Origin: a virus
Direction: 5' to 3' (one strand)
IMG/VR virus record: IMGVR_UViG_3300043499_000197
Coordinates: 1-64,000 of that record
Length of the DNA: 64,000 nucleotides
Part shown: piece after piece, positions 12,601 through 48,502 of the stretch
Layout: each line of letters begins with the position of its first letter
Numbering within the stretch: the stretch's first letter is position 1
Translations under genes and position numbers: made by a program
The notes under the pieces: generated by a model
What the model saw: the letters and a program-made list of their open reading frames with translations, nothing else
Database searches by the model: none
Told to the model about the DNA's origin: nothing

Positions 12601-15600
12601 GAAGGGGCTCGCGACCCACGCATCGCGCAACTGGCCACCCAGATCTATCTCAAGATGGGCGAGGGCAACGGCAAGCTGAAGACGCGCGTGGACGACAAGG
12701 GCGGCAGCGCCAACCACGCGGAGGTGAAGATCACGCCGCAGGGGCCGACCGCCACCTTCTACACGGCCAAGGGAGCGCGCGGCCTGTCCACCGACACCGT
12801 GCTGCACGAGGCGCTGCACGTGGTCTCGCTGTCGGCTTACTACGACGTGACGGCCGCGGCCAAGGCCGGCAACGCGGCGGCGACCAAGGCCGTGAGCGAG
12901 ATGTACGGCTTGTGGAACGAGTTCGAGACCGCGGCGCAGAAGGCCGGCATGGGCAAGGGGCTAGACCTGGAGACGCGCAGTTCGATCCGGGAGTCGATCG
13001 AGAGCATGGACGAGTTTTTCGTGCGCGCGCTCACCGACCCGGCGCTGCAGAAGTTCATGGCCACCGTCCCCTACGAGGGCAAGACGCTGTGGGACCACTT
13101 CAAGGACTGGGTGCGCAAGACGCTCACCGGCAAAGCCGGCATCCAACCCAGTTGGCTGGACGCGGCCACGCTGGGCTCCGAGCGTTTCCTCGAAGCGCAA
13201 GGCCCGCAGATGGCTGCGTGGCACCAGCAGGCCATGGGCGGCGCCAAGCAACTCAACTCGGCCCGCGCACAGAATATCGAGGCGGTCAGGCGGGCGGCGG
13301 TGGAGCGCGTGCCGGCACGGGCGCGCCCGGCCGTGGACACCATGAGCCGCATGATCGGCAACTCCACCAAGAGCCTGATCAAGGGCCTCACCTTCACGCG
13401 CGACCTGCTGCAGATGGCCGAGCGCGGCCTGGGGCAGGCGGCTGCGGACTACCTGCGGCTGGAAGAAGGGCGCAACGCAACGAAGATCGCCCACCTGCAT
13501 GCGGCCGACGTGGTCGTGGCCGCGCACAAGAAGCTGTCGGTGGCCGAGCGTGCCGGCGTCAACGCCTACCTGAAGAAGTCCACCATGGAAGCCAAGTGGG
13601 GCTACCGGCCGGACCACTTCAGTGCCGAAGACAAGGCCAAGGTGAAGGTGGACCCGGCGCTGGAAGCGATCTGGAAAAACACGCTGAACGACGCCCAGCG
13701 CGCGGTCGTGAAAGAGGTGTTCAAGCACGGCCACGAGACGCTGACGACGATGAAGACGCTGGTGAACCTGAACGTGGCCGCCGAGTTCCAGGCCGCCATC
13801 GCGCAGGCCCGCGCGGCCAACGACGACAAGGGGGCCGACAAGCTGCAGGCCGACATGGACGACCAGTTGGCCCACTTCAAGACGCTGCTGGCGGTGGGCG
13901 AGTACCACCCGTACGCGCCGCTCAAGCGCTTCGGCAACCACGTGGTGGTCGGCAAGTCGCAGCGCTACATGGATGCCGAAGCGGCGCTCGAAGCCAACGC
14001 TGACGACAAGGCCGCGCGCAAGGCGCTGCGCGAGATGCAGTCCAACGCCGACCATTACTACGTGTCGATGCACGAGACCCAGCACGAGGCGCAGCAGGAG
14101 CGCGACCGCATCGCCGGGCAGTACGACCAAGCCGACACGATGGAGAAGGACCGCGGCTACCTGAACGAGGTGGGCGGCAACCGGGGCATGATGGGCATGT
14201 TCCACCGGCTGCGCGGGCAGGCCGAGCGCGAGGGTGGCAACTTGGACAAGAAGGCCCAGCAGGCCACCGACCGCCTGCTGACCGACCTGTACCTGTCGCT
14301 GCTGTCGGAGACCAGCGCACGCCAGTCCGAGCGCGAGCGCAAGAACGTGGCCGGCGCCGACGAGGACATGATGCGGGCCTTCCATTCCAAGGGCCGCGCG
14401 GACGCCAACTTCCTCGCCTCGCTGGCCACCGGCGGCGCGATGCAGGACGCGCTCAATGCGATGGAGAAGGAAGCCGGGCGCAACGGCATGGTGAACGGCA
14501 CCACGCGCGAAGAGCGCCATGCGCACTACAGGGAAATCCTGTCGCGCCACGTCATGGGCATGGACTACAAGCAGAGCCCGGCGGTGGATGCCGCGCTGAA
14601 AGCCTCCTCGGTCATGCAACTGCTGACCAACCCGGCCTACCACCTGACCAACCTGCTGCAGCCCTATGTCATGAGCGTGCCGACGCTGGCCGGGCGCTTC
14701 GGCATGGTGAAGTCGATGGGCGCGATGATGGCCGCGCACCGCGAACTGGGCGGGCGGCTGTTCAAGAACGGCGTCGATCATTCGTCGATCGAGGACCTGC
14801 CCAGCGATGTGCGCAAGGGCATCCAGGCGCTGATGGACAAGGGCCTGATCAACATGAGCCTGGACAGCGAGCACGGTGGCGAGTGGAACGAAGGCAAGCT
14901 GGGCAAGCCGATCGGCTGGCTGAAGCGCGTCTCCGAGCGCATCGAGGCGGTGAACCGGGTGGCCACGGGGGTGGCGGCGCTGCGGCTGGCAGACAAGGCC
15001 GGCCTGAGCGAGCAGGCGGCTGTTAACTACGCGGCCAAGATCATCTACGACACGCACGGCGACTACTCGGGCTTCAACACCCCCAGCCTGATGCGCGCTC
15101 CGGTGGCGCGCCTGATCACGCAGTACCGCAAGTTCCAGTTGATCCAGCTTCACAACTACACGCGCATGGTGCGCGACGGCTTCCTGCGTGCCGACCTGAG
15201 CAAGGAAGAGAAGTGGGTGGCCAGGAAGGCGCTGGCGTACAACCTCTCGACCATGTTCGCGCTCGGCGGGACCCTGGCGCTTCCCGGTGCGCAGGCCGTG
15301 GGTGCGATCCTGCGCGCCATCTTCGGCGATGACGACGAGCCCGACGATCCCGAACTGACGATGCGCAAGTACTTGGCCGACGCCGGGCTCGAAGGCATCT
15401 CCGACCTGCTGGTGAAAGGGGTGCCGGCGTGGCTGGGCGTGGATGTGTCGGGCCGGCTGGGTGCGGGCAACATCGCCTCGCTGTTCCCGTACGCCGACAT
15501 CAGCGACAAGGGCAAGAGCAGTCTGGTCTCGCGCAAGGCGTTCGAGGCGTACGCGCTGGCGGCCACCGGCCCCTTCATCGGCGGGCTCGCGCCCAAGCTG

Positions 15601-25878: not shown

Positions 25879-27846
25879 TTATTTCGCACTCCCGTATCTG
25901 TGCGCTACCGCCCCTTCGGACCATGTGATCAGTTGTGGCCACCACTTGGGTGCCTTTCTTAGTATGAGTTGAAGATGCGAGAGCAAAGGTTCTGCCTCGC
26001 GCTCGGGCACCACGTAGGCGAGTTCATCGTGCACGCGCAACTTGGGACGCCAGCCGGTGTCCTGGAAATATTCCAGGCTGGCGTCGAACAGTGAGTCTCG
26101 CCCCAATGCCTGGACGATATTCTCGTCGGCTTTGGGGCCGTGGATGCGGGCACGATGGCGCCCGGTGCCATAGAACCAGGAGGTCTTGGGCATGCCATCG
26201 GGCCACGTGCCATCGGGCTCCTCGTGCAGGCCCGGGTAGCGGATCAGCCGCCCCGAGGGCAGCACGAATCCGTCCGAGCAGGTGGACACCAGCCCCCACG
26301 GATCGACTTGGCGCTCGACGCCGCGGTGGATCCAGCCGAGCGCGTCGCTCAGGATGCGCCAGCCGCCGCGCTTGCCGGCGATCTCGGGGTGGTCGGCGCG
26401 CCAGTCGTCCACGTGGGTCTGTGACTCATCGAGCGTGATGTCCAGCCCGCCGAGGGTCTTGGCCACGCGGATGAACGCCTCGGCGCCGGCGCCGAACCCC
26501 AGCCCCAGATTCTTCAGCTTCTCGATCTGGCGCTGGAACTTGCTCACCTGATCCATCGTGATGCCGTGCGCCAGGGCGCCGCTCGCGCGGTACAGGTCGG
26601 CCTTGGCGTCGGCGCGGAAGATCGCCATCGTGCGCGCCACCATCCACAGGAAGTGGTTGATGCGCACCTCGATGCCGGACTGGTCGGCCACGATGACCAC
26701 GTAGCCGGGCGGTGCCTGCAAGCACAGCCGCAGCGCGTCGCTCACCTTGGGGTGGTCGGGGTCGATGCGCGGCATGTTCTGCGCGTTCATGTTGTCGGTG
26801 CCCGAGTCGCGCCCGCTGGTGACCGCGCCGCAGTACAGCAGCGGCACCGGCAGCAGCCCCCCAGTGGCGCGCGCCACCTGCTGGAAGGTCGCGAGCCGCG
26901 TCTCCAGTTGCGTGCTCTTCACATCCAGCCGCACGCGCGCCGCGGTCGCCACGATCGGGTTGTCATGCTCCTGCAAGTCGATGAACGCCTGATCGGTTTT
27001 CGCCAGCGCCGGGATCAGCACGCCGTAGCTGGTGTTGGACGGCTTCATCGGCACCTGCACGCCAAGGCTTTGCAGCAGCTTGGCGAAGCGTGCGCTGCTG
27101 GCCAACTCGGAGCGCACGTGCTCGGCCAGCACGCGCTCGGCAGCCTCTTCATCGGCTGAGCCCCACACGATGTCGTCGGGGATGGCCAGCATCTCGCCCA
27201 GCGCGATCAGGTTGTCGTGCTTGCGGGCGCGCTCCATCTCGGCCGCGCGCTCCAGCATCGGCAGGTCCACCACGAACGCCGGCTCCACGCGCATGCGGAT
27301 CAGCAGGTCGATCTGCCACAGTTCCCGGCTGTCGTAGCAGGGCAGCAGGTGGTAGAAGATCTCGCGGCACTGCAGCGTGTCGTCCTCGTTGTAGACGCGC
27401 ATGCGCGCGATCTCGTCGGGCGTGAAGTCCACGAGGCGGCGGCCACGGGTCTGGATCAAGATCGTGTTGTCCTTGATACCCAGCCGCAGGTAGGCCACCA
27501 GCTTGCCCAGGCCCAGGCCCACCGTGCGCTTGTAGATCGGGCGCGCCATGGCCATCGAGCAGCCCCACATCTTGGGCCGGATGCCGCAGCGCCACGCCGC
27601 GACGTAACTGTCGAAGCCCTCACAGTTGTGGGCGATGACGTAGGCGTCGGACCAGTCGATGCTGGCCACCAGGGCGTCGATCTCCTGCTGGCCGATGGCG
27701 GTGCGCGCCTCGCCCTTGCGGCCGATGGCCACGGTGAGCGACTGCAACTCCCAGCGCGGGTCCAGGACGTACGCGGCGGGCGGCATCTTCGACAGGCTGT
27801 ACTCGGTGGACCAGTAGGTTTCGAAGTCGATGAACACCAGCTTCAT
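25879..27846 (-). CDS. Family A DNA polymerase with 3'-5' exonuclease, 655 aa
   Basis: The proofreading domain has FIDFETYW (Asp7, Glu9), VIAHNCEGFDSY and RVYNEDDTL. Polymerase motif A is VIVADQSGIEVR (Asp388), motif B RQIEKLKNLGLGFG (Arg439, Lys443) and motif C HDE at 606-608. Aligned with E. coli Pol I motif B, the position of Phe762 is Leu447 and that of Tyr766 is Phe451, an uncommon combination. No 5'-3' exonuclease domain. It should be the replicative polymerase with the primase-helicase. Overlaps the 34 aa membrane gene by ATGA. Confidence 0.95.
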   Translation of the reverse strand: MKLVFIDFETYWSTEYSLSKMPPAAYVLDPRWELQSLTVAIGRKGEARTAIGQQEIDALVASIDWSDAYVIAHNCEGFDSYVAAWRCGIRPKMWGCSMAMARPIYKRTVGLGLGKLVAYLRLGIKDNTILIQTRGRRLVDFTPDEIARMRVYNEDDTLQCREIFYHLLPCYDSRELWQIDLLIRMRVEPAFVVDLPMLERAAEMERARKHDNLIALGEMLAIPDDIVWGSADEEAAERVLAEHVRSELASSARFAKLLQSLGVQVPMKPSNTSYGVLIPALAKTDQAFIDLQEHDNPIVATAARVRLDVKSTQLETRLATFQQVARATGGLLPVPLLYCGAVTSGRDSGTDNMNAQNMPRIDPDHPKVSDALRLCLQAPPGYVVIVADQSGIEVRINHFLWMVARTMAIFRADAKADLYRASGALAHGITMDQVSKFQRQIEKLKNLGLGFGAGAEAFIRVAKTLGGLDITLDESQTHVDDWRADHPEIAGKRGGWRILSDALGWIHRGVERQVDPWGLVSTCSDGFVLPSGRLIRYPGLHEEPDGTWPDGMPKTSWFYGTGRHRARIHGPKADENIVQALGRDSLFDASLEYFQDTGWRPKLRVHDELAYVVPEREAEPLLSHLQLILRKAPKWWPQLITWSEGAVAHRYGSAK

Positions 27847-37549: not shown

Positions 37550-40444
37550 TCATTCTTGTCTCTCGGTGTTCAGGTTCGGCAGGTCACTGAAGCTGGTGCT
37601 TTCGTCGATCACGATGGGTGCGAGGCCGGCGCGGCGCAGTTCCACCAGCAGGGCGTCATCCTCCTGGGCTTGCTGGGCACGGACACGCGCGACGTTCTCT
37701 TCCAGCGAGAGCGCCGAACTGGCGGGCTGCAGGTGCGACAGCAGGTTGGCGGTATCGAGGCTGGCCGGGGGCACGATCACGAAGTTGGGCGCGGGCAGCG
37801 AGGCCTCGACCGCGGCCATCGCGGGCTCGATCCAGCTTTCATCGGGCACCCCCGTGATGGGCGCCGGCGCGTGGGGCCACGTGTTCGGGTCCCTGCCGGT
37901 GGTGGGCACCGGCCACGCGGCGGCCGGGTTCAACACCCGGCCCTCCACATAGGCTTCCACCTGCGCGGGTGTCACCACCGTGCCGAGCGCGGGATCGGGG
38001 TTGGGCTCGGCCACGGGGGCGAAGGGCCAGCCTAGCTCGCTCACCGTCCCATCGGCGTTGCGCACCGTTCGCACTGGCGTGTCGGCCGTCACGGCCTGCG
38101 GCCCCATCCCATCGGGCGAGCCCATCACCTGCTCCATGCGATCCAGCGCCTGCGCCACGTGGGTGGGCACCTCCTCGATCGGGCGGTTCATCATGCCGGC
38201 GGCCATCAGCCGCGGCCAGCGACGCACCACGGCCGTGGCCAGCGTGTCGTCCACCTCGGCGATCAGGCGGTCCATCTCGGAGTCGCCCAGCGTGTTCAGC
38301 GTGGCGATCACGGCGGCCGTGGTCGGCGCGGCTTCCACCGCATTGGCCTCGGCCATCGCCATCCCACGCTCGTGGTCGAACGCCTGCATGCCTTCGAAGG
38401 CATCCTTCACCACGCGCGCCCACGGCGGGCCGTTGGCATGCTGGTAGCCCAGCGTGCGCTGCATCCACTCGCTGTCCTTCTGCATCAGGAGGATGCCCAG
38501 CGCGGCCTCGTAAAGCTGGCGCGGCTCGGTCGGCTTGTTGTAGTGGGTCAGGGCGACGATGTTGTCGCCCGACTTGAACCACGTGCTGGCGCTCTGGAAC
38601 CCGTTGCTGAACGCACGCAGCATGCGCTGGTCGCGCAGGCGCCGATCGACATTGGAGTCCGGGTCGATGCTGCGGTAGGCCAGCTTGTAGGTCGGTTCGA
38701 ACAACTCGCGCACCTTCTCGGCCGAGATCACAATGTCGCGCGCGACGTCGGTCTTGGACATCCTGAAGGCATGGCCGCAGATGGTGATCGGCACCACGTT
38801 GCGTTCGTACTCCCAGGTGCCGTCCACCAACTGGTTCACCTCGTGGGTGTCGGTGATCACGCGCTTGCCGCCGCGCGTCACGGCCAGCCTCGGGTGGTCC
38901 CGGTGCGCCAGCCCGCGATAGCTGTTGTACACGGCCACCGGCAGGTAGCCCTCGGACTTGAGCGGCTTCACCATCGAGACGTGGGTGAAGCTGTTGCCGC
39001 CCTCCTTGTACAGCATCAGCGCGTCTTCCTTCTTGATAAAGGTGTGCACGCCACCCGCACCTTCGAGGTACACGCAATCGACACGCGCGTGGTAGGTCGC
39101 CCCGCCCGGATAGAACACGCTGTCCAGCAGGCAGACGCCGGCGGCTTGGCGCGTGGGCGCGTCGTTGAACCAACTGTCCATGCCGGGGATCGCCACCTTG
39201 TCGCGCACGGGGATCGTGCTGTAGATGTACTGCAGCTTGCCCTCGCGATGGATGCGCATCATCACGCGATCCTCGATCTCTTCCACCGCGGCCTCGATGG
39301 CCGAGCCGACCGTGCCGTCCTCGGTCACCCACAGCACCGTGGACACCTCCATCCGGTTGGCTTGCTTGCCGGTCAGCAGGCAGGTGTAGTGGAAGGTCGA
39401 GAGGTCGATCTCGGGCACCTCGACGTGCCCGTCCTGGGTCTGCACGCCCTTGGCCATGATGCCGGCCTTGGCGTAGGCGCGCTGCTGCTCGCCGGTCACC
39501 AGGGTGAAGAAGTCCTCGCCCTTGAAGCGCACCGCGTGCTCGGAGTCGAACGCGCGGTCCACGTTGGTGGCGTGGATGCCGCCGGCCGGATCGATCCACG
39601 GCATCACGATCATGGCGTCGTTGTTTTCGTCGAACGACGGGTCGCGCAGGATGCGCAGCTTGGCGCCGGCCAGCCCGCGCATGCGGTAGCCGTTGGCCTC
39701 CAGCTTCTTCCTCAGGATGGGGTCGCCATAGATGCGCACGTAGCGCTTGTCGTCGGGGTCGGCCGGGTTGATCCAGACCACGCTGCGCGATTTCACCGTA
39801 CCGTTCACGTCGGTGGTGTAGGCCACCCCCATGTTCGGGCTCGCATAGACCGCACTCGGGTGGTACTCCTCGTGGCCGAAGTGCTCCTCGTCGTAGCGCA
39901 TGCAGCCGGTGTCGCCGTCCATTTCGCGATAGACCTGGTAGATCGCTTCCACGGTCTCGGCCAGCTTGAAGCTGGTATCGAGTTCGCTGCGATGCTGCTG
40001 TTCCAGCCGCTGGATCTCGCGGTCGGGTGCCCACAGCAGGAACTTGCGCAGGAACCGCCCGATCGTCATGCGCTGCTTGCGGTCGGCCCGGCCTTGCACC
40101 GGGTCGGGCGTGAACGCGATCTCGGTCCTGTCGATCGGGCTCACGTGCGGCCACATCTGGCCGACACCGGTGTTGGAGGCCACCGTGCGCAGCCAGCGGA
40201 TCACGCTGGTCGGCTCGGGGTAGAACCCGACCGTCTCGCGGATTATGTCGCGCTGCAGCGGCCAGAGGTCGCCGCTCACGTGCTGCAGGTCGTGCACGTA
40301 CTGGTGGTCGGCCATCGGCAGGTGGTTCCCGGCCTGCACCCAGGCGCGCCCGATGTGGCTGCGGGTGCGGTTGAACACGTCATCGAACTGTTCTCGAGAC
40401 GTGATGTTTTGAGCCCATAAGGCTTTGGTTTCTTCGTTCGTCAT
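37550..40444 (-). CDS. Large early protein of unknown function, 964 aa
   Basis: Start at MTNEETKALW; the ORF extension upstream crosses a terminator and is not protein-like. The region about 180-280 (GDTGCMRYDEEHFG, NMGVAYTTDVNGTVKSRSVV, RYVRIYGDP) resembles a module in many large-phage hypothetical proteins (SCMRxx, GRALVW, RIY pattern). The C-terminal 200 residues are Pro/Ala-rich linker. No catalytic motif is clear. It follows an intrinsic terminator, so it may have its own promoter. It is the largest early gene and is followed by the M20 peptidase. Confidence 0.75.
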   Translation of the reverse strand: MTNEETKALWAQNITSREQFDDVFNRTRSHIGRAWVQAGNHLPMADHQYVHDLQHVSGDLWPLQRDIIRETVGFYPEPTSVIRWLRTVASNTGVGQMWPHVSPIDRTEIAFTPDPVQGRADRKQRMTIGRFLRKFLLWAPDREIQRLEQQHRSELDTSFKLAETVEAIYQVYREMDGDTGCMRYDEEHFGHEEYHPSAVYASPNMGVAYTTDVNGTVKSRSVVWINPADPDDKRYVRIYGDPILRKKLEANGYRMRGLAGAKLRILRDPSFDENNDAMIVMPWIDPAGGIHATNVDRAFDSEHAVRFKGEDFFTLVTGEQQRAYAKAGIMAKGVQTQDGHVEVPEIDLSTFHYTCLLTGKQANRMEVSTVLWVTEDGTVGSAIEAAVEEIEDRVMMRIHREGKLQYIYSTIPVRDKVAIPGMDSWFNDAPTRQAAGVCLLDSVFYPGGATYHARVDCVYLEGAGGVHTFIKKEDALMLYKEGGNSFTHVSMVKPLKSEGYLPVAVYNSYRGLAHRDHPRLAVTRGGKRVITDTHEVNQLVDGTWEYERNVVPITICGHAFRMSKTDVARDIVISAEKVRELFEPTYKLAYRSIDPDSNVDRRLRDQRMLRAFSNGFQSASTWFKSGDNIVALTHYNKPTEPRQLYEAALGILLMQKDSEWMQRTLGYQHANGPPWARVVKDAFEGMQAFDHERGMAMAEANAVEAAPTTAAVIATLNTLGDSEMDRLIAEVDDTLATAVVRRWPRLMAAGMMNRPIEEVPTHVAQALDRMEQVMGSPDGMGPQAVTADTPVRTVRNADGTVSELGWPFAPVAEPNPDPALGTVVTPAQVEAYVEGRVLNPAAAWPVPTTGRDPNTWPHAPAPITGVPDESWIEPAMAAVEASLPAPNFVIVPPASLDTANLLSHLQPASSALSLEENVARVRAQQAQEDDALLVELRRAGLAPIVIDESTSFSDLPNLNTERQE

Positions 40445-40460
40445 GGTTTGACTGGAACTT

Positions 40461-40473
40461 TTCTTTGGTGAGG
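40461..40473 (-). promoter_or_regulatory. Early leader element, variant (964 aa gene)
   Basis: Minus-sense CCTCACCAAAGAA, inside a larger hairpin CTTTTC, loop CTCACCAAA, GAAAAG that overlaps the T-tract of the terminator just upstream. No classical Shine-Dalgarno sequence is visible here, so the element is kept without a matching AGGA. Confidence 0.6.
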
Positions 40474-40509
40474 AAAAGAAAAACCCCGGCAGTTTGCACC
40501 GCCGGGGTT
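40474..40509 (-). terminator. Rho-independent terminator on the minus strand
   Basis: Minus-sense 9-bp stem AACCCCGGC / GCCGGGGTT (plus coordinates 40482-40490 and 40501-40509) with a 10-nt loop, then TTTTTCTTTT. It ends transcription of the 173 aa gene at 40577-41098 or attenuates reading into the 964 aa gene. Confidence 0.8.
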
Positions 40510-40576
40510 GGAAGGCGTGCCTTGCGCACACCGGGGGAGGGGAGCTAACCCTGAAAGTATCTTAGCTTACATCCTT

Positions 40577-41098
40577 TCAGTAAGGAAGGTCGTCGTCGCC
40601 TTCGATCTCGTAGGCATCCTTGGAGGCCAGCACCCAGGCGTTGCCCATCACGTCGATGATCATCTGCTCGCCCTCGATGGCGATCGTGGTGGCCGCGTTG
40701 GGCGCGCTCTCGCTGGCCACGATGTCGTCGTTGCCGGCGGCGTCCATGTTGTCCAGCATGTCGATCAGCGCCTCGTGCAGGCGCTCGACCGGCACCTGAT
40801 ACCAGCGCTTGGCAGCCGCAGCGCCGGCCGCTCCGGTGGCCGCCGCGTGGATCCACTTGCCCTGGTCGTCCAGGGTGTACGCCTCGCGCGTGGATTTGTT
40901 CTTCAGCACGCCGGCGTTGTCGGCACCCGAGTCCACATCGACTTCCGCCACCAGCTTGTGGTTGGCGGGGATGCCGAACTGGACCTTGGCACGCGCGAAG
41001 ACTTCGCGCTTCATCGCCCGGCGGGCGTCGGTCGGCGCATAGTCGCGCGCGATTTTGATGGCGTGGCATTCAGCAGTTGACAGTTTGGCGTAGGCCAT
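40577..41098 (-). CDS. Early protein of unknown function, 173 aa
   Basis: Start at MAYAKLSTAECHAIKIAR; leader-like CTCACCAATTGGAG upstream. Helical N-terminus, an acidic beta part in the middle (AEVDVDSGADNAG) and an acidic C-terminus (EIEGDDDLPY). Terminator downstream. Function unknown. Confidence 0.65.
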   Translation of the reverse strand: MAYAKLSTAECHAIKIARDYAPTDARRAMKREVFARAKVQFGIPANHKLVAEVDVDSGADNAGVLKNKSTREAYTLDDQGKWIHAAATGAAGAAAAKRWYQVPVERLHEALIDMLDNMDAAGNDDIVASESAPNAATTIAIEGEQMIIDVMGNAWVLASKDAYEIEGDDDLPY

Positions 41099-41142
41099 TT
41101 TTCGATACTCCAATTGGTGAGAGATCCGGGGACACAAGGAAA

Positions 41143-41212
41143 CGCACACGGGGGATCAGTCCGTGTGCGCATGACCAAAGCTGGTCAGTATGCGCATGAA
41201 TCACGCGCATAC
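41143..41212. other. Three consecutive hairpins in an intergenic region
   Basis: Stems CGCACACGG/CCGTGTGCG (41143-41151, 41161-41169), TGACCA/TGGTCA (41172-41177, 41182-41187) and GTATGCGC/GCGCATAC (41188-41195, 41205-41212), all perfect. On the plus strand the last is followed by GGTTTTACTTT. They occupy the gap of 118 bp before a leader element. Terminator, attenuator or small RNA are all possible. Confidence 0.6.
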
Positions 41213-41216
41213 GGTT

Positions 41217-41657
41217 TTACTTTGATCGACGTTGCTTGTCGTACTCACTGCGGCACGTTTTGCAGATGTAGCCGCGTGTTGTGAACTCGGCCAGCAGCTT
41301 GACAGCGCAGCACTTGAAGCACCGCCTATGACCTTCGGGCGGCACATCTTCGCTGTGTGTCATGCGTGCATTGCACGACTGGCATATCAGGGAAACCGTG
41401 CCGTCTTTCCAGTGCTGCAGGCTAACGACCGCTGACATGCCAGCGACGTTACTGCGCCAGAACATCTCCAGGTCACATTCAGAGCACACGAGCGGGTCGG
41501 GCACCAGCGCTTCAAGTTCAGCTATGCCGGGCACGAATTTCCCGCCGGCTTTCGCACTTCTGCGCATTCTGCTCAACCGATAGTGTGCCTCGCAGTACAG
41601 CGTGCCGCGCCCGTTGACGTCGCGCACGCCTTCCTGGTCGCAATGGATGCAGTTCAC
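41217..41657 (-). CDS. Multi-Cys zinc-binding protein, 146 aa
   Basis: GTG start by GTGA overlap. Six Cys pairs or clusters (CIHC, CEAH, CSEC, CQSC, CFKCC, CKTC) indicate two or three zinc ribbons; the C-terminal CFKCCAVKLLAEFTTRGYIC is a pattern seen in recombination-endonuclease VII-like zinc modules, but no HNH catalytic core is clear. Last gene of a coupled string; probably nucleic-acid binding. Confidence 0.65.
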   Translation of the reverse strand: MNCIHCDQEGVRDVNGRGTLYCEAHYRLSRMRRSAKAGGKFVPGIAELEALVPDPLVCSECDLEMFWRSNVAGMSAVVSLQHWKDGTVSLICQSCNARMTHSEDVPPEGHRRCFKCCAVKLLAEFTTRGYICKTCRSEYDKQRRSK

Positions 41658-41761
41658 CGTCGTGGCTTGGTGCAGTGGTACACCAGCCAGCCGATGGCCA
41701 CGCTCAGCCAGATCGGACAGGCCACCCGGTTGCGGTAGCCCTGGCCCTGCCATTTCCTCAT
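41654..41761 (-). CDS. Membrane microprotein, 35 aa
   Basis: ATGA overlap with the gene before and GTGA with the gene after. The hydrophobic segment VACPIWLSVAIGWLVYH suggests one membrane span, flanked by basic residues. Function unknown. Confidence 0.55.
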   Translation of the reverse strand: MRKWQGQGYRNRVACPIWLSVAIGWLVYHCTKPRR

Positions 41762-41931
41762 GGCTGGGGTCCCTGGCCGGAATGCGCGTTGGCCTCGTTC
41801 TGCGCCACGAGGTCGGCCTCGCCGGCAGGCGCGTGGCGGGGCTCGTCCTTGAGGGCGATCCAGACGCCGATGAGCACCAGCGTGCTGGCCACCAGCGTCA
41901 GGGCACCGATGGGTGCAAGGATGGCGCACAT
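41758..41931 (-). CDS. Membrane microprotein, 57 aa
   Basis: TGATG overlap with the gene upstream. Hydrophobic N-terminal span ILAPIGALTLVASTLVLIGV followed by a polar tail (KDEPRHAPAGEADLVAQ). Too short for the usual ORF cut-off but tightly coupled. Function unknown. Confidence 0.6.
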   Translation of the reverse strand: MCAILAPIGALTLVASTLVLIGVWIALKDEPRHAPAGEADLVAQNEANAHSGQGPQP

Positions 41932-42083
41932 CACAGCGGCCGGCCCTTGTCATCGAAGCCGCCCTGGCCCGGCGGGGGCGGCAGGATGGGGTCGATCAGC
42001 ACGACGTAGCCGACGAAACCCAGCAGCACCAGCGCGATGATGGCGAACACCGGCGCGACGATGTAGAGGAGGAAGTCGATCAC
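41931..42083 (-). CDS. Membrane microprotein, 50 aa
   Basis: GTG start by GTGA overlap with the 133 aa gene. Hydrophobic span LLYIVAPVFAIIALVLLGFV, then a Pro-rich tail (DPILPPPPGQGGFDDKG). Function unknown; one of three consecutive tiny membrane genes, which could include lysis helpers, but nothing proves it. Confidence 0.6.
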   Translation of the reverse strand: MIDFLLYIVAPVFAIIALVLLGFVGYVVLIDPILPPPPGQGGFDDKGRPL

Positions 42084-42481
42084 GATGCGGCCTTGGGCGC
42101 GGCCCCGCTCGCACCGTTCGCCTTGGCTCTGATCGCCTGCTCGATGTCGGCGATCACGTCCAGCGCGGCCTCGATCGGGGTCTCGGCGGGCGGGGGCATG
42201 CCCTGATCGACGTAGACCCGGCGCCGCTCGCGCATCACGTGGCTGGCCAGTTCGAGTTCGGACCAGCCCATCTTCTTGCCCAGGTTGACCATCACGATCG
42301 GCCCGATGGCATCGAACAGCTTGACCGCGACCAGGGGCACGTCCAGGCCCAGCTTGTGGTGGAGTTCGACGCCGACCACGATCATCTCCAGGCGAGACAT
42401 GAAGGCGTCGTAGGTGCTGGGTTGCTGGGCGTTGGTAGGCGCTTCTTCAGCGCCGGGGCAGGGTTGACCGGGTTTGCACAT
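42080..42481 (-). CDS. Early protein, 133 aa
   Basis: Start at MCKPGQPCPG after the leader element CCTCACCAAAAAGGA (42489-42504). The middle part (LEMIVVGVELHHKLGLDVPL, AVKLFDAIGPIVMVNLGKKM) is helical and hydrophobic. It heads the string 42481 to 41217. Function unknown. Confidence 0.65.
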   Translation of the reverse strand: MCKPGQPCPGAEEAPTNAQQPSTYDAFMSRLEMIVVGVELHHKLGLDVPLVAVKLFDAIGPIVMVNLGKKMGWSELELASHVMRERRRVYVDQGMPPPAETPIEAALDVIADIEQAIRAKANGASGAAPKAAS

Positions 42482-42525
42482 TTTCAATTTCCTTTTTGGT
42501 GAGGTTGAAGGAGAGGGACAGGGAA

Positions 42526-42789
42526 TCAGTTGTTGCTGTCGGGCCAGTCGGCTGGCAGGTTGGCGATGGTCTCTCCAGGTTGGGGAATCGGCCAGCCGAT
42601 GATAGCTTCGCCGATCGTGAACACCTGCTGCAAATAGGCCGGCTCGATGGCGCGCAGCGCATGCAGGGCAGCCGAATACTCCAGGTAGAAGCACCCGCTG
42701 CGGGCTTTCTCGAAGCCACGCTTGAAGCCGCGCTTGTCCTTGGCCACGATAACGAACACCGTAGTTGGTTGGCTCAGTTTGATCTTCAT
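42526..42789 (-). CDS. Early small protein, 87 aa
   Basis: ATGA overlap with the previous gene. A beta start (MKIKLSQPTTVFVIVAKDKR) then helices and a Pro-rich C-terminus. No motif; function unknown. Confidence 0.6.
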   Translation of the reverse strand: MKIKLSQPTTVFVIVAKDKRGFKRGFEKARSGCFYLEYSAALHALRAIEPAYLQQVFTIGEAIIGWPIPQPGETIANLPADWPDSNN

Positions 42790-43019
42790 GATTTCGAAAA
42801 GAAGGTGGTGACGACCAGCGAGTAGCCCTGCCACCAGCAATACAGGCTCAGGAACACGTACGACAGCCACTCCAGCGGCAGTTCGCCCAGCGTTTTCACG
42901 TGGGGCGCACCGGGCCAGAGATACCAGCCTAATGCCATGCAGACGAGGGCCAGCAGGACCAGCAGCACGTTGGCTCGCTTCTGGTGCGCGCGGGTCAGGT
43001 TGAACAGGTCGAGTTTCAT
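42786..43019 (-). CDS. Two-span membrane protein, 77 aa
   Basis: Two hydrophobic segments, ANVLLVLLALVCMALGWYLW (17-36) and EWLSYVFLSLYCWWQGYSLV (50-69), with a basic N-terminus. Size and shape are compatible with a holin but also with many other phage membrane proteins; no endolysin is present in the window to support the lysis idea. ATGA overlaps both sides. Confidence 0.65.
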   Translation of the reverse strand: MKLDLFNLTRAHQKRANVLLVLLALVCMALGWYLWPGAPHVKTLGELPLEWLSYVFLSLYCWWQGYSLVVTTFFSKS

Positions 43020-43198
43020 CCGCGCCTCCACACGTCGTTGAACTGGATCACCGCTTCGTCGGCCATCATCCGAGCGTTCGCAGAAGCCTTTTCGACATCG
43101 AGGTGTCGAGCCATGCAGATGGGCAGCGCGTGGGCGTACGCAGCCGTCCAGAGCAGCACCTGCTCGGCGCGATCTTCGCGGTACTCTTCGTCGGTCAT
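43016..43198 (-). CDS. Early small protein, 60 aa
   Basis: ATGA overlaps with both neighbours; start at MTDEEYREDR. Mostly helical, with residues AYAHALPICMARHLDVEKAS. Function unknown. Confidence 0.6.
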   Translation of the reverse strand: MTDEEYREDRAEQVLLWTAAYAHALPICMARHLDVEKASANARMMADEAVIQFNDVWRRG

Positions 43199-43383
43199 AC
43201 CCGGCTCTCCAGGTACTCGACGAGGTAGCGCGCGTAGTTGGGCACGAACACGTGGCCCTCGAACTCGAAGGTGGCGTCGCGCACGGGACGCGCATCGGCT
43301 ACCTTCAGCGCGGCCTTGAAGCGTTCGAGCTTCGGGCGGGTCCAGGTCACGCCGCCCCTGGGGCGGGGGGTGTGGTTGGTCAC
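43195..43383 (-). CDS. Early small protein, 62 aa
   Basis: GTG start within the GTGA overlap with the HTH gene stop; AAAGGAACCAA precedes it. Ends FEFEGHVFVPNYARYLVEYL, a recurring pattern in small phage proteins. Function unknown. Confidence 0.6.
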   Translation of the reverse strand: MTNHTPRPRGGVTWTRPKLERFKAALKVADARPVRDATFEFEGHVFVPNYARYLVEYLESRV

Positions 43384-43670
43384 TTGGTTCCTTTCTTGAA
43401 TCGATACTGGATGCGGCGCTCGACACCCATGCGGGCCAGCGTCTCGTCGCTCGGGGCATCCTTGGACCCGCTGGTGAGCCGGCACCAGTAGGTCTTGTCC
43501 ACCCCGCACTGGCGCGCAGCTTCGGCCTGCGTGCCGTGGATGGCGTTGAGCTTCGTCACGATCTCGGTGATGGTGGTCCAGTCGCCAGCGTTGCGAGCCT
43601 TGAGTTGCTCGGCAAGCAGCCGGCCCATGTTGCGTGCGCTGCGCTTGGCGAGTTCCTGTGGGGTCAGCAT
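43380..43670 (-). CDS. HTH DNA-binding protein, 96 aa
   Basis: Start at MLTPQELAKR; the ribosome site is AAAAGGAACGGGACGAAAC, a sequence repeated at two other places. TQAEAARQCGVDKTYWCRLT is a Cro/CI-type helix-turn-helix. It ends with GTGA overlap into the next gene. A candidate early regulator. The longer ORF in frame was rejected as a shadow. Confidence 0.7.
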   Translation of the reverse strand: MLTPQELAKRSARNMGRLLAEQLKARNAGDWTTITEIVTKLNAIHGTQAEAARQCGVDKTYWCRLTSGSKDAPSDETLARMGVERRIQYRFKKGTK

Positions 43671-43690
43671 GTTTCGTCCCGTTCCTTTTA
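43671..43690 (-). repeat. 20-nt repeat, copy 1 (ribosome site of the HTH gene)
   Basis: Plus-sense GTTTCGTCCCGTTCCTTTTA, identical to 44583-44602; 16 nt of it recur at 45704-45719. On the minus strand it reads AAAAGGAACGGGACGAAAC, an AAAGGA ribosome site and linker. Confidence 0.8.
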
Positions 43691-44041
43691 CAGGGCGTTG
43701 CGGGCTTGCGTGGTGGCGCGGTAGCCCTGGTTGATGCCGTACTGCGTGCGGTAGAACTCGGAGGCCGGGTAGGCGTAGGTGGTGTCGTCTTGCCAGCGCA
43801 CCTCGATCTCGGTGCCCGACTCGACGAAGTGCCAGCAGCCCGCGCCCACGATGCGCCCGCTGGCGGCCTGGATGTAGGCGTGCTTCTCGCCGCGCTGGCA
43901 GGTGGGCACGATGTCGTCGGTGACGGCGATGCGCCCGCCCACCTTGTTGGGCAGGTAGCCGATGGTGTCGGCCTTGGCTGCATGCATGGCAGCCATCGAG
44001 AAGCCGACAGCCAGGGCGATGGTGATAAGGGATTTTTTCAT
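43688..44041 (-). CDS. Secreted protein, 117 aa
   Basis: Signal peptide MKKSLITIALAVGFSMAAMH, with cleavage likely after AAKA near residue 24. The mature part is beta-rich with two Cys (DIVPTCQRG and GAGCWHF) that could form a disulphide. It has its own structured leader (44050-44104). A periplasmic or secreted early protein: possible superinfection exclusion or envelope modification, but this is a guess. Confidence 0.75.
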   Translation of the reverse strand: MKKSLITIALAVGFSMAAMHAAKADTIGYLPNKVGGRIAVTDDIVPTCQRGEKHAYIQAASGRIVGAGCWHFVESGTEIEVRWQDDTTYAYPASEFYRTQYGINQGYRATTQARNAL

Positions 44042-44049
44042 GATGATCC

Positions 44050-44104
44050 TGTTGGTGAGTTGAGGTAGTGGGATAGTCCCGCGATGCGCGCTGCGACACG
44101 CATC
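44050..44104 (-). promoter_or_regulatory. Structured leader of the secreted-protein gene
   Basis: In minus sense: hairpin I (stem GATGCG/CGCATC, loop TGTCGCAGCG, 44083-44104), a 2-nt gap, hairpin II (GGGA, CTA, TCCC, 44070-44080), then CTCACCAACAGGA and the ATG. The same order and the same loop occur at 44484-44532 with a different stem sequence. Confidence 0.7.
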
Positions 44105-44113
44105 AGGTGAGTA

Positions 44114-44470
44114 TCAGATTGCCTTGCCCAGCAGGGACTCGACGTGCAGGATCGCTGCGCGCTCGGCCGCGTTGCGGACGTCGGCCAGCTTGGCCATCTC
44201 CTCGTCGGCCCGGCGCGCGGCGTGCATGGCGTCCACTGCCTGCAGCACCGAGGCGGCGAACTGATTGAGCAGGCTCACGCACACTTCATCGTGCGGCTTG
44301 CCCGTGGCATAGGCGAACGCATGCGTGGCGCGCAGGAACACGGCCGGCAGTTCGACCGCCTTGCGCTCGATCTTGGGTGCCTGCACAGGCTCGTTCTTGT
44401 CCAGGCCGAGCTTCTCGCGCAGCAGGGCTTGCAGGCGGGTGACGTTGGCAGGGGGTTGGTTGGTGGTCAT
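44114..44470 (-). CDS. Early protein, 118 aa
   Basis: Start at MTTNQPPANV, 10 nt after the leader element CCTCACCAACCAAAAGGA. Mostly helical (ATGKPHDEVCVSLLNQFAAS). It resembles the 111 aa protein next to it only in general helical character. Function unknown. Confidence 0.65.
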   Translation of the reverse strand: MTTNQPPANVTRLQALLREKLGLDKNEPVQAPKIERKAVELPAVFLRATHAFAYATGKPHDEVCVSLLNQFAASVLQAVDAMHAARRADEEMAKLADVRNAAERAAILHVESLLGKAI

Positions 44471-44483
44471 CTGACATCCTTTT

Positions 44484-44569
44484 GGTTGGTGAGGTTTGGG
44501 ACATTCCCACTGAGCACGCTGCGACATGCTCAAGGTGAAAGTCGGGTTCAGCGCATGTAGGATGCGCTG
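44484..44569 (-). promoter_or_regulatory. Structured leader of the 118 aa gene
   Basis: In minus sense, from far to near: hairpin 0 (CAGCGCAT, CCTAC, ATGCGCTG, 44549-44569), hairpin I (TGAGCA, loop TGTCGCAGCG, TGCTCA, 44511-44532), hairpin II (GGGA, ATG, TCCC, 44498-44508), then CCTCACCAACC and AAAAGGA. All stems are perfect. Confidence 0.7.
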
Positions 44570-44582
44570 GTTGCCGGTCGGG

Positions 44583-44602
44583 GTTTCGTCCCGTTCCTTT
44601 TA
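44583..44602 (-). repeat. 20-nt repeat, copy 2
   Basis: Plus-sense GTTTCGTCCCGTTCCTTTTA overlapping the stop of the 111 aa gene. It is a ribosome-site-like sequence (AAAAGGAACGGGACGAAAC) but no gene starts behind it, so it may be a remnant or a protein-binding site. Confidence 0.8.
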
Positions 44603-44935
44603 TGCGCGCGCAGCGTTCTCTTGTTCGGCGAACTCGGCCATGCGCTTCTCGGCATCCGCTTCCTGGCCAGCGACCAATGCAGCGTAGCGTTGCGGGTGGA
44701 GTTGTTCGGCCAGCAGGTTGGCCAGCGTGGCCATGTTGCAGGCGCTGGTGTTCTCCAGCTTCTCGAAGGCACGCTCGCCCTCGGCACTCCAGTCGGGGAA
44801 CATGCGCTCCAATGCGAGGCGCTGTTCGAGTTGTTCCATGTGGTCGGACACGCACTTGCGGACAGCGATCTCGGCCAGCTTGCGTGGGGTGAGGTCGTTC
44901 AAGGCTTCGAAGGCCTGGATGGGGGTGATCTGCAT
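44600..44935 (-). CDS. Early helical protein, 111 aa
   Basis: ATG after AAAGGATAGTC. Helical and acidic (KLAEIAVRKCVSDHMEQLEQ, then KLENTSACNMATLANLLAEQ). No motif; function unknown. Confidence 0.65.
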   Translation of the reverse strand: MQITPIQAFEALNDLTPRKLAEIAVRKCVSDHMEQLEQRLALERMFPDWSAEGERAFEKLENTSACNMATLANLLAEQLHPQRYAALVAGQEADAEKRMAEFAEQENAARA

Positions 44936-44960
44936 GACTATCCTTTAAGTTGCAGTTAGG

Positions 44961-45257
44961 TTAAGCGCGGCGGTTGTCGCGCGGCTGGACATAGGTGCTG
45001 AAGTTGGTAGCTTGTTTGCCGGGTTGTGTCTCCCACTTGTTGGACTTGGCTCTCCATCCGGCCGGGATGACGGTCGAGTTATCAGGCTCGTGTGCGCTGG
45101 CTTCGCCTTTACGATCCACTAACAAGAAGGTGTGACCCTTCGGAATGCGGTTAGTGTTGCTGTTCATCCATGTTCGGGCTTGCGCCTTAGTGCTGCAAGC
45201 GTGGATTTGGTAGACAGACTTGCCGTTAAAGGCTACGTGCACTTGAGTTAAGGCCAT
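44961..45257 (-). CDS. Early protein, 98 aa
   Basis: The ORF is longer, but the start at MALTQVHVAFNG is fixed by TAAGGAG 6 nt upstream; the extension would run into the repeat region and is not protein-like. Alpha/beta pattern with a basic C-terminus (KWETQPGKQATNFSTYVQPR). Codon use is less GC-rich than elsewhere. Function unknown. Confidence 0.65.
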   Translation of the reverse strand: MALTQVHVAFNGKSVYQIHACSTKAQARTWMNSNTNRIPKGHTFLLVDRKGEASAHEPDNSTVIPAGWRAKSNKWETQPGKQATNFSTYVQPRDNRRA

Positions 45258-45450
45258 TAAGGGCTCCTTAGTGTAGGGGTTAACCCCCATGATTTCTGAC
45301 ATGAGGGGGGGTTGGTGCCGACATTTCCGACTGTTGGCAGAAATCGACACACAGCTTAATGTGGTTGATTTCATTGAAGATTTCACTGTGACAGTTTGTA
45401 CCTTCCGACATTTCTGACATGTTTCGAAACTCACTGTCCCCCGTTTCATG

Positions 45451-45468
45451 ACGTTAAGGGCTTAACGT
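45451..45468. repeat. 18-nt inverted repeat
   Basis: ACGTTAAGGGCTTAACGT is ACGTTAAG, two loop bases and CTTAACGT. Its inner part (TTAAGGGCTTAA) is complementary to TTAAGCCCTTA at 45482-45492, so an alternative fold is possible. Confidence 0.8.
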
Positions 45469-45703
45469 GAGTACACTGACATTAAGCCCTTAGCTAATTA
45501 GCGCTTCAGAAAATTCTTATGCGCGAGGGGTAGGGTTTTATGTAAGAAATCTCAGAAGTGTCAGAAATGTACAGGAAGAACACTTTCTGACATAGGCCGA
45601 CCGATTTCTGACAGTCAGAAGTCACTAAGGCTTAATAGGCCCCAAATGTCGCCCAAACCGTAGATGGCCGACACTTCAAGCCCAAAATGGCCGTTAATAT
45701 AAA

Positions 45704-45719
45704 TCGTCCCGTTCCTTTT
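45704..45719 (-). repeat. 16-nt repeat, copy 3
   Basis: Plus-sense TCGTCCCGTTCCTTTT, shared with 43671-43690 and 44583-44602. It lies in the non-coding region and is not followed by a normal start codon. Confidence 0.75.
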
Positions 45720-45749
45720 TCGCACTAAGCGGCCCTTAAGACCGCTTAG

Positions 45750-45801
45750 TTAGCTAACTTAAGGCCCTTAACAGCTAGTTAAGCGGCCTTAAGTTAGCTA
45801 A
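45750..45801. repeat. Long near-perfect hairpin
   Basis: A 17-bp stem TTAGCTAACTTAAGGCC / GGCCTTAAGTTAGCTAA, one unpaired base, then CTTAAC / GTTAAG and a 5-nt loop AGCTA. Flanking GCACTAAGCGGCC occurs as a direct repeat (45722-45734 and 45805-45817). It sits just after the stop of the 160 aa gene; without a T-tract it is not a standard terminator and may be a cruciform or protein site. Confidence 0.85.
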
Positions 45802-45832
45802 GCCGCACTAAGCGGCCTAGTTAAGAGGCTAA

Positions 45833-46315
45833 TTAGCCTTCGATGGTGCGTGCTGCGTCGTCCTTAGCAGTGTCGTCCTTGCCGATCAGCGCGCTAAGTT
45901 CAGCCACCATGCTGATAAGAACCATCTTCTTGCCCTTAGGCGCCTTGCCGTTAGACACAGCCAGTGCATGCAGGCCTTCGATGATCATGCAGAACGAGCG
46001 AGCCGTAGCCTTAGACGGGCGGCGCGCTTGTCCGAGCATCATGTCGATAACTAAGCGCTGTGCCTTAGGCACGATGCCTTCGTTAAGGACCTCGCGCATC
46101 AGGTTGCCGTAGTTGCCGTCCATGCACTGCTTAGCGAAGATTTCCATCATGAGGCGCTGACGTTCGTCCTTCGATGCGAAGCTGATCGACATCTCGAAGC
46201 AGCGCGGGTTGCCCTTCTTGTCGAAGGTGACCATGTGGCTGGTGGCGTTGCTCAGTGCGTCGGACACGGTGATCTCGCCGACGATGGAGGGTGCAGTGTT
46301 GGTGATCGAGTACAT
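45833..46315 (-). CDS. Early protein, 160 aa, first gene of the minus arm
   Basis: First gene read from the divergent region, with leader element CCTCACTAAGGA. Helical centre (ERQRLMMEIFAKQCMDGNYG) and a basic patch (MLGQARRPSKATARSFCMII). Lower GC than neighbours. No family recognised; an early host-takeover protein is plausible. Confidence 0.7.
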   Translation of the reverse strand: MYSITNTAPSIVGEITVSDALSNATSHMVTFDKKGNPRCFEMSISFASKDERQRLMMEIFAKQCMDGNYGNLMREVLNEGIVPKAQRLVIDMMLGQARRPSKATARSFCMIIEGLHALAVSNGKAPKGKKMVLISMVAELSALIGKDDTAKDDAARTIEG

Positions 46316-46424
46316 AAAAATTCCTTAGTGAGGTGAAACGTTGTAGCTATGCGGTCGCATGCCAGTTAACCCATAGTTCATAACGCTATGGGCTAACGGA
46401 CGTGTTGTCCTTCGGGTTGGTCTA

Positions 46425-46477
46425 GATACTTTGCGCGCCTCTCTAACTACTGGCGCTAACCGATACTTTGCGCGCCT
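46425..46477. repeat. 16-nt direct repeat
   Basis: GATACTTTGCGCGCCT at 46425-46440 and again at 46462-46477, 37 bases apart start to start. Exact. The meaning is unknown: a promoter-like or protein-binding repeat. Confidence 0.8.
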
Positions 46478-47090
46478 ACGTAAACCGGGCGCCGCTGTTT
46501 GTTCATCAGGTGACATCGCTACCTTTAGTCCTGCTTTCGGACGCCGCGGCTTGGCCACGGTAGTGCTAAGTAATCGTCGCCCACGCTCCGCATACGTTCC
46601 CCGTGCGACTCCGTGCCTTCTCATGCTGGCCTAGTTCGCTGTCCAATACCGTATGGTTCTGCGTGCTTTGATTCCGCTCACGAGCTATAAGCTTTCCTCG
46701 GCCTTTCAACCGGATTCCCCGTTAGGGCGCCTATGTCGCAATTCGCACATGCACATCAGTCAATCACGCGCTGATGGCGCGGACACGCTAACCCCTGCAC
46801 TCGCAACCCCGGTTTGTTTCCCGTCCGGGCGCCGCGCCATGCTTGGCCGCAACTGTGTCGTTCGCATGGCCTCGATACTCGCGTCTTGCGACGCGCGGAT
46901 TCCATGCTCTGAATTTTTAATGACCGCGACGTTTCGCTGCATCGCTAGGCTTAGGCGCGGGACGGAAGGCCTTTACAGGGGAATCCGTTGGCGCGCCGGC
47001 CGGTGCCGATGCTGCTAGAGCTTGGAGGCTCAGCCTGTAGGGACTGCGATCAGCCCCTACACACTAGGCGACGGGTCTACCTGCCCCCCT

Positions 47091-47119
47091 GGGGGCTGGG
47101 GGGCGAGGGAGGGGAGGGG
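47091..47119 (+). other. G-quadruplex-forming stretch
   Basis: Five G-runs of 3 to 6 bases separated by CT, CGA, A and A. This meets the usual pattern for a stable quadruplex on the plus strand, about 55 bases before the first operator-like palindrome of the late side. Confidence 0.7.
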
Positions 47120-47170
47120 TGGCCAGCCCTTATGTCCTGCACACAGTCCCCAGATCCTCTTCAGCACCTA

Positions 47171-47184
47171 GTAAACTACTTTAC
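47171..47184. promoter_or_regulatory. Operator-like palindrome copy 3
   Basis: GTAAACTACTTTAC, one mismatch to the perfect palindrome. 105 bases from copy 4 (start to start), about ten helical turns, so one protein could bridge the two. Confidence 0.5.
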
Positions 47185-47275
47185 ACACGGCAATCGTGCA
47201 AGCACGCTTCCGTGGCGCGCTCAGCGCCATAGCAAACGTGACGGCCCCAGCACCCAGCCCACACAGCCACACTAA

Positions 47276-47292
47276 GTAAACTAGTTTATATT
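47276..47292 (+). promoter_or_regulatory. Operator-like palindrome copy 4 with -10 box
   Basis: GTAAACTAGTTTAT contains the perfect 12-bp palindrome TAAACTAGTTTA, running into TATATT (47287-47292), a good -10. The same arrangement (palindrome then TATAYT) occurs at 21335 on the minus strand. It is about 110 bases before the first late gene. No clear -35 was found. Confidence 0.5.
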
Positions 47293-47403
47293 GGGCCCCC
47301 CGTGCAAACCCTGCCTTTTATGCACGTCACACTGCGCTATTAGAAAAGCGTGCCTGATAATCGCGTGCATCCCCGCGCCCGCTCACATCACCAGGAGATG
47401 CCC

Positions 47404-47547
47404 ATGGCCAGCGACGTCCCGCCCTTCGACAAGAAGAAGAAACCCGCCAAGGGGAAGATGCCGTTCCCGCCGGCCTCCAAGGCGGGAGGCCCGGCCCCCG
47501 ACAAGGGCGGCAAGAAGCCCAACCCGTTTGCCAAGAAAGGAGCCTGA
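47404..47547 (+). CDS. Small basic late protein, 47 aa
   Basis: Start at MASDVPPFDK after AGGAGATGCCC. Rich in Lys, Pro and Gly (KKKKPAKGKMPFPPASKAGG); probably disordered. First gene of the late arm, right before packaging genes. The function is unknown; it could bind DNA or act in packaging. Confidence 0.65.
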   Translation: MASDVPPFDKKKKPAKGKMPFPPASKAGGPAPDKGGKKPNPFAKKGA

Positions 47548-47549
47548 CC

Positions 47550-47714
47550 ATGGCCCGCAAATCAGGAACCCTCTCGATCCAGAAGAAGCCTTCCGTCCCT
47601 TCGGGCGGGCGCATGAACCCGACCATGGACCAGAAGACGATGCCCAAGGTGCCGTTGCCGGCCAAGGGCAAGAGCAGCAAGGAATCGAGCACCCGGATGC
47701 CCGGGCCGAAGTGA
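47550..47714 (+). CDS. Small basic late protein, 54 aa
   Basis: ATG after AAAGGAGCCTGACC. Basic and low-complexity (PKVPLPAKGKSSKESS), similar in style to the previous gene. Followed by a GCGCGC/GAA/GCGCGC hairpin (47727-47741) without T-tract. Function unknown. Confidence 0.65.
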   Translation: MARKSGTLSIQKKPSVPSGGRMNPTMDQKTMPKVPLPAKGKSSKESSTRMPGPK

Positions 47715-47755
47715 CGCTGCGCTAACGCGCGCGAAGCGCGCTCCCCGGATCGCAG

Positions 47756-48502
47756 ATGTCCGACTACGGCCTCGTCCTCCCCGACCATGACCTGACCGCG
47801 GCCGACTTCAAGGAGTTGGCGCGCCGTGTCGGGCGTGCCGCCTTCATGCCGCTGTTCCTGCGCTACTACGAGCGGGTGGTGACGAGCGAGGCGACGATCG
47901 AGGAGCAGCGCCGCGGGCTGGTGGACATCGCCCGGTGGACGGGTGTCGAGGAAGAGAAGAAGAGCGACCCGAACGCCAACCTGCCGGTTTTCCAGATCAT
48001 CTTCGGGCAGGCAGGCACCAGCGCGGCCAGCATCGAGGCGGTGGAGGTCATACAGCCGCCCACCCACGAGCCCTTGCCCACCCCTGACCCACGCGCACCT
48101 GACGCGCTATTAGACAGTGCGGCGGAACTGATTCCAGCGGACATGCTGAAATCGTTTGCTCACGACCTGGAAGAAGTGGCCCGGTCGGCGCAGCCGGCCG
48201 GATCACGCATGAAGGAAATAGCCGATGCCCAACCCCACGCCGCCCCATCCGCCGCTGCAGCACATGCAGACCCTCCCGCGCCTGTCGAACCCGGCCGATC
48301 CGCAGATCCACCGCCTGAGCCCGTTCGATCAGGCCCACCGGATTCCGGGCCACGGCTCGCAGCACACCGAGCGGGAATTGACTACGAGCGACCCCAAGGC
48401 TTACAACTTGCCCCCGCCGCCCCTGCCGAAACACGCGACGAGCCGGTAAGCCCCACCTTCACCCAGGCGCTGGCCGACCTGGACAGCCTGCTGGACATCT
48501 AA
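47756..48502 (+). CDS. Probable terminase small subunit, 248 aa
   Basis: It lies directly before the large terminase. The N-terminal 110 residues look folded and helical (TAADFKELARRVGRAAFMPL, then RGLVDIARWTGVEEEKKS), fitting a DNA-binding small subunit. The C-terminal half is Pro/Ala-rich and overlaps a nested gene (48225-48449), then ends with a regular helix (TFTQALADLDSLLDI). The small-terminase role is inferred mainly from position. Confidence 0.6.
   Translation: MSDYGLVLPDHDLTAADFKELARRVGRAAFMPLFLRYYERVVTSEATIEEQRRGLVDIARWTGVEEEKKSDPNANLPVFQIIFGQAGTSAASIEAVEVIQPPTHEPLPTPDPRAPDALLDSAAELIPADMLKSFAHDLEEVARSAQPAGSRMKEIADAQPHAAPSAAAAHADPPAPVEPGRSADPPPEPVRSGPPDSGPRLAAHRAGIDYERPQGLQLAPAAPAETRDEPVSPTFTQALADLDSLLDI
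48225..48449 (+). CDS. Nested small gene in the terminase small subunit gene, 74 aa
   Basis: Out of frame with the host gene, ATG with AAGGA 8 nt upstream. By hand count about 89% GC-ending codons in this frame against about 52% in the host frame over the same bases. Pro/His-rich protein (PNPTPPHPPLQHMQTLPRLS) ending in a basic tail. Function unknown; a small packaging or head protein is possible. Confidence 0.6.
   Translation: MPNPTPPHPPLQHMQTLPRLSNPADPQIHRLSPFDQAHRIPGHGSQHTERELTTSDPKAYNLPPPPLPKHATSR

Follow-up and report, generated by a model that had tools for sequence, protein, structure and literature searches.

Two adjacent leaders in a leftward operon, probably an early one, from an uncultured bacterial virus are predicted to fold into the same bulged 18-pair hairpin, the stem of which differs in sequence between the copies with its pairing intact, while its tip is invariant. 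The pair is of the broad kind of phage leader hairpins. As the most likely of the explanations weighed here, if a tentative one, we propose that a duplicated, cis-acting leader hairpin acts on the gene downstream of it via its conserved tip, in the control of translation or decay.

The window analysed comprises positions 1-64,000 of the 65,423-bp virus record IMGVR_UViG_3300043499_000197, with a GC content of 65%. Head genes, namely those for the terminase (48503), a portal-like protein (49956) and the major head protein (53542), run rightward. A leftward set from about 46315 includes helicase, DNA polymerase A and primase-like genes, with a polymerase-like gene at 25879-27846, and both leaders belong to this set, on the minus strand. 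Leader 2 (region 44549-44466) sits in the gap between the end of the upstream gene at 44600 and the start, at 44470, of a 118-aa ORF (44114-44470). Leader 1 (region 44121-44037) follows the stop at 44114 and precedes the start, at 44041, of a 117-aa ORF (43688-44041), whose N-terminus, judged by eye, resembles a signal peptide. Searches for relatives of the 117-aa and 118-aa proteins found none, and the two gave no match when compared with each other.

The earlier note had described the same elements in the same order in both leaders, and every piece that it named is indeed present, on the minus strand. The succession of TGTCGCAGCG and GGGANNNTCCC occurs twice in the entire record, with no occurrence of a reversed control pattern. 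In an ungapped alignment the leaders are identical at 36 of 56 positions (blastn E 1.3e-6), and leader 1 is the top match to leader 2 on either strand of the window, about 6.6 standard deviations above the background mean (14.5, sd 3.2). Because this block is alike, but the 60 nt farther upstream agree at only 15 of 60 positions and the downstream proteins are unmatched, the sequences suggest that the leader was probably duplicated in one piece and that its gene was not included.

What structure do the leaders adopt? When upstream nucleotides are included in the folding, each copy is predicted to prefer a single 18-pair hairpin, in which the bulged A and the 1-nt bulge are common to the two. 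The GGGA previously assigned to a separate hairpin II pairs with UC(A)CC just 5' of hairpin I, and adjoining bases extend the stem. The common plan thus reads GA(C/U), a variable 2-nt step, UC, the bulged A, CC, hairpin I, a 1-nt bulge, GGGA and the returning strand. In leader 2 (44500-44543, minus strand) this minimum-energy fold consists of GAC, a U-U mismatch, UUC, the bulged A (44536), CC, hairpin I, the 1-nt bulge, GG, GAA and GUC. In leader 1 (44072-44115, minus strand) it consists of GAUA, a C-C mismatch, UC, the bulged A (44108), CC, hairpin I, the 1-nt bulge, GG, GA and UAUC, the 5' G and A of the hairpin being the final two bases of the upstream stop codon. Hairpin I forms a core of 10 pairs (44510-44533 in leader 2, 44082-44105 in leader 1, minus strand), and the tip TGTCGCAGCG (44517-44526 and 44089-44098, minus strand) is an exact match in both. 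The 10-nt loop of the earlier note is constant, as claimed, but it is predicted to be mostly paired, with U-G, G-C and U-G pairs that close a CGCA tetraloop.

Hairpin II (GGGAATGTCCC at 44498-44508 in leader 2, GGGACTATCCC at 44070-44080 in leader 1, minus strand) is predicted as a minor alternative to the longer stem, at 6-15% probability; in the longer context its pair probability is about 0.06 in leader 2 and about 0.11-0.15 in leader 1. The extended stem has an energy of -21.9 kcal/mol in leader 2, versus -17.5 kcal/mol for hairpins I and II together, and of -21.0 versus -18.6 kcal/mol in leader 1. The consensus fold likewise picks the long stem; 17 pairs are common to both leaders, and five of these are compensated. 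In growing-transcript folding the long stem is already present when the last CC of hairpin II has yet to be transcribed. As the extended stem and hairpin II exclude each other in these models, a switch between them is conceivable. The long stem ends 29 or 30 nt upstream of the ATG. It is followed by a start cassette, CTCACCAA-CC-AAAAGGA (44477-44493) in leader 2 and CTCACCAA-C-AGGA (44047-44059) in leader 1, both on the minus strand, and both genes have comparatively accessible start regions, which rank 4 and 16 among 80. The CTCACCAA-AGGA cassette is in general use at the starts of this phage and not specific to the two leaders: of the 53 minus-strand starts called, 11 have TCAC[CT]AA no more than 35 nt upstream, as against none of the 28 called on the plus strand.

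The stem of hairpin I, which had been noted to change and yet to remain paired, bears this out: four of its ten pairs differ on both sides, all of them Watson-Crick, no position differs on a single side, and pairing is perfect in both leaders. A fifth compensated pair lies in the outer part of the longer stem in the consensus fold. Under a null model of unconstrained change, in which eight stem positions were altered at random, the stem stayed fully paired in 231-232 of 500,000 trials (about 0.05%, or 5e-4), which makes a recent duplication without pairing, the refutation considered at the outset, unlikely. In a shuffle control the observed values were reached by 32 of 500 sequences for the two-hairpin structure and by 7 to 13 of 500 for the longer stem. 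These numbers compare two sequences from one genome, as no third copy was found, and are not a phylogenetic covariation test. Eight stem bases changed, but the bulged A and the ten bases of the tip, with its two U-G wobbles, stayed as they were, the wobbles being kept in both copies although Watson-Crick pairs would be more stable; the constancy of the tip may merely reflect a young duplication. On the whole, the notion of a structured RNA leader that stays paired through sequence change is supported by the five compensated pairs of the longer stem, the two-hairpin layout is not the favoured fold, and a riboregulator read by protein or RNA, the guess of the earlier note, is possible.

A third copy was sought in the phage itself, in terminase-related viral loci, in collections of viral and bacterial genomes and in Rfam, and none was found. 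At gathering scores no Rfam 15 family matched anywhere in the window, and 43980-44640 gave none up to an E value of 10. In the viral contig collection, the exact tip plus hairpin II pattern was absent, and a looser pattern yielded 36 stretches with chance-like stems, the best of which outside the window had 5 pairs, versus 8 in the window copies. The pattern of hairpin II plus CTCACCAA was reported in 94 stretches of viral contigs; among those in loci L114-L193, which our script examined, no other combined a comparable hairpin I directly upstream with a start cassette. The same kind of pattern in genome contigs gave 47 matches, where by a rough estimate about 40 are expected by chance, none with more than 3 outer pairs. 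The covariance search that had been proposed for homologues returned nothing beyond the two window copies: the models R1 and R2, run against 28 and 31 sources, gave only weak matches outside the window, and none was obtained in 399, 381 and 378 bacterial genomes of three orders, which may not include that of the host, searched without a positive control. The weak matches in L020/L021, L008 and L005 were rejected, having the start cassette or an unrelated hairpin in common with the leaders and not the tip. Short blastn searches against phages gave chance-level matches only, the terminase had no match at 1e-60 in the 399 genomes of one order, and the 964-aa protein as a query brought up no new relative. 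The nearest kin, with a terminase 98% identical, aligns solely from 45684 rightward and lacks the leaders.

How could such a hairpin act? We infer that the leaders are transcribed as part of the operon, that the tip is recognised and that recognition has a regulatory effect. In the scheme we favour, a cis-acting mRNA hairpin of the leftward operon would have been duplicated to give the two leaders, each presenting the invariant tip UGU-CGCA-GCG on its bulged 18-pair stem and leaving the ribosome-binding site largely open. A putative RNA-binding protein of phage or host would read the tip, and its binding would set the translation or decay of both small downstream genes together. Consistent with this are the compensation of all stem changes next to an unchanged tip and bulged A, the duplication of the unit without its gene and the accessible start regions; to be weighed against it are that there are two copies in a single genome and that the viral, bacterial and Rfam sets searched gave no relative. 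A more far-reaching version, rather doubtful in our view, takes the pair as a twin operator or a two-state switch between extended stem and hairpin II, through which one RNA-binding factor would control two adjacent early genes with the UGU-CGCA-GCG tip as its recognition site, and which would define a new class of phage leader RNA.

A quite possible alternative to reading of the tip is a generic intercistronic hairpin, which would protect the polycistronic mRNA, mark it for processing or prevent base-pairing between upstream sequence and the ribosome-binding site; any stable stem would then suffice, and the tip would be the same through duplication. Terminase-related phages have similar cassettes, often with a strong hairpin before early leftward genes. 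Such hairpins, of unrelated sequence, precede leftward genes in L005, L008, L010, L012, L020, L022, L024 and L028, and hairpins of at least 9 pairs occur at 25 of 222 starts in this group, against 10.8 expected from shuffles, the 222 being starts with free upstream sequence, which may include those of non-real genes. The tip TGTCGCAGCG is absent from all listed hairpins outside the window in this group. That different strong hairpins stand at comparable places in related phages fits a role independent of the tip sequence, as do the open start regions. What a generic hairpin leaves unexplained is the constancy of the ten tip bases, the bulged A and the two U-G wobbles while eight stem bases changed. 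Rather unlikely, in turn, is that the pairing is maintained by template switching between the arms of the inverted repeat, with one arm recopied from its partner, in which case the hairpin may do little or nothing as an RNA. The mechanism is known to create multibase compensatory changes in hairpins (PMC8794818) and can give the same pattern, and the four adjacent or near-adjacent pairs of hairpin I that changed together fit one or two such events; however, bulges separate these four from the fifth compensated pair, in the outer stem, and the mechanism leaves unexplained why the copies are placed 29 and 30 nt before start codons.

Control at the level of transcription or of DNA appears less likely than any of these. 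The leaders might form an intrinsic terminator, an attenuator or a put-like antiterminator RNA, and an operon-internal terminator downstream, at 40509-40482, would make read-through control useful. An intrinsic terminator combines a GC-rich stem with a U run, but no U run trails either hairpin, and neither leader hairpin is among the terminator-like sites found. The put RNA of phage HK022 contacts RNA polymerase at its zinc-binding domain and suppresses termination (PMC9378689), and putL and putR, like our leaders, are two similar structured copies in one phage. However, put RNAs are about 70 nt in length, with two long stem-loops near early promoters (PMC9378689), whereas here one bulged stem of 44 nt is favoured, the second hairpin has only 4-5 pairs at 6-15% probability, and both sites lie between genes; the leader model also gave no match in HK022, and we consider this assignment, like a transcription element in general, improbable. 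Least credible of all is a DNA site. The inverted repeats adjoin a gene for a 96-aa protein (43380-43670) with a weak helix-turn-helix match, below the cut-off of the family, and could be operators for it as a phage repressor. Here, however, it is the arms that vary and the centre that is kept, opposite to what a dimeric repressor site would show, and a search for sigma-70-like promoters in 40000-48500 found none.

If tip-mediated control is the correct reading, are there precedents? In RNA phages, the coat protein operator of MS2 and R17 likewise has one stem, from which an A bulges and which ends in a tetraloop, near the start codon. It differs from the leaders in sequence and in holding the start codon inside the hairpin, and the virus studied here is a DNA phage. 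A closer parallel in layout, with a constant tip, a changed stem and a hairpin upstream of the ribosome-binding site, is the gene 43 operator of T4 and RB69, in which the top ten bases are identical, the size of the hairpin differs between the two phages and the hairpin lies about 40 nt upstream of the start (PMC3014915). In that operator, translation is repressed by protein bound to the hairpin. Its loop is of the UAAC type (UAAA in RB49; PMC3014915), whereas ours is CGCA; it precedes the DNA polymerase gene, whereas the leaders precede genes for small proteins without found relatives, in two copies in one genome. With the loop CGCA, and a polymerase-like gene located elsewhere (25879-27846), membership in the gene 43 operator family is rejected.

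The leader hairpin is probably an mRNA control or protection element; two copies are known, and its function is a guess. It is nevertheless a defined and testable element, 44 nt in length, in which the tip is fixed and the stem has changed without losing its pairing, and the ordinary leaders of the same operon provide built-in controls. If a protein reads the tip, the leaders would constitute a translational operator outside the T4-like phages that controls two genes at once; if none does, they would offer a clean case of hairpin maintenance in intergenic phage RNA.

Several further features were observed. On the minus strand, strong hairpins that differ in sequence among the phages precede early leftward genes at L005 4981, L010 404, L022 570 and L024 1218, and some of these genes are relatives of the 160-aa gene at 45833-46315 of the window. 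Locus L115 holds, at 11970-12022, a perfect GAGGCCGGGA-CAA-TCCCGGCCTC hairpin (GGGA-CAA-TCCC) directly before CTCACCAAAGGA and an ATG; tblastn of the window ORFs gave no relative in that locus, and the layout of hairpin plus cassette may, given this case, be wider than the present phage. The sequence AAAAGGAACGGGACGA occurs three times within 2 kb on the minus strand (45715, 44597 and 43685); one copy, unlike the other two, stands directly before an ATG and resembles a ribosome-binding site. At 45293-45613, TTTCTGACA is present in five exact copies that run in both orientations, all in an AT-rich gap (GC about 0.46), possibly as origin iterons or an operator cluster. Beside them, at 45725-45835, is a cluster of the palindromic words TTAAGGCC, CTTAAG and AAGCGGCC, which holds all three CTTAAG sites of the window. 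The terminator-like hairpin at 40482-40509 (minus strand) is strong and has a U run; it is internal to the leftward operon, with the start cassette of the 964-aa gene following immediately, which suggests attenuation or a need for read-through. A selenocysteine tRNA called by ARAGORN at 43270-43360 (plus strand), inside a called minus-strand gene, is probably spurious. Finally, a 3159-aa protein is encoded at 6637-16116 on the plus strand, the C-terminal part of which has matches to DarB-like antirestriction proteins and to related families of giant phage proteins.
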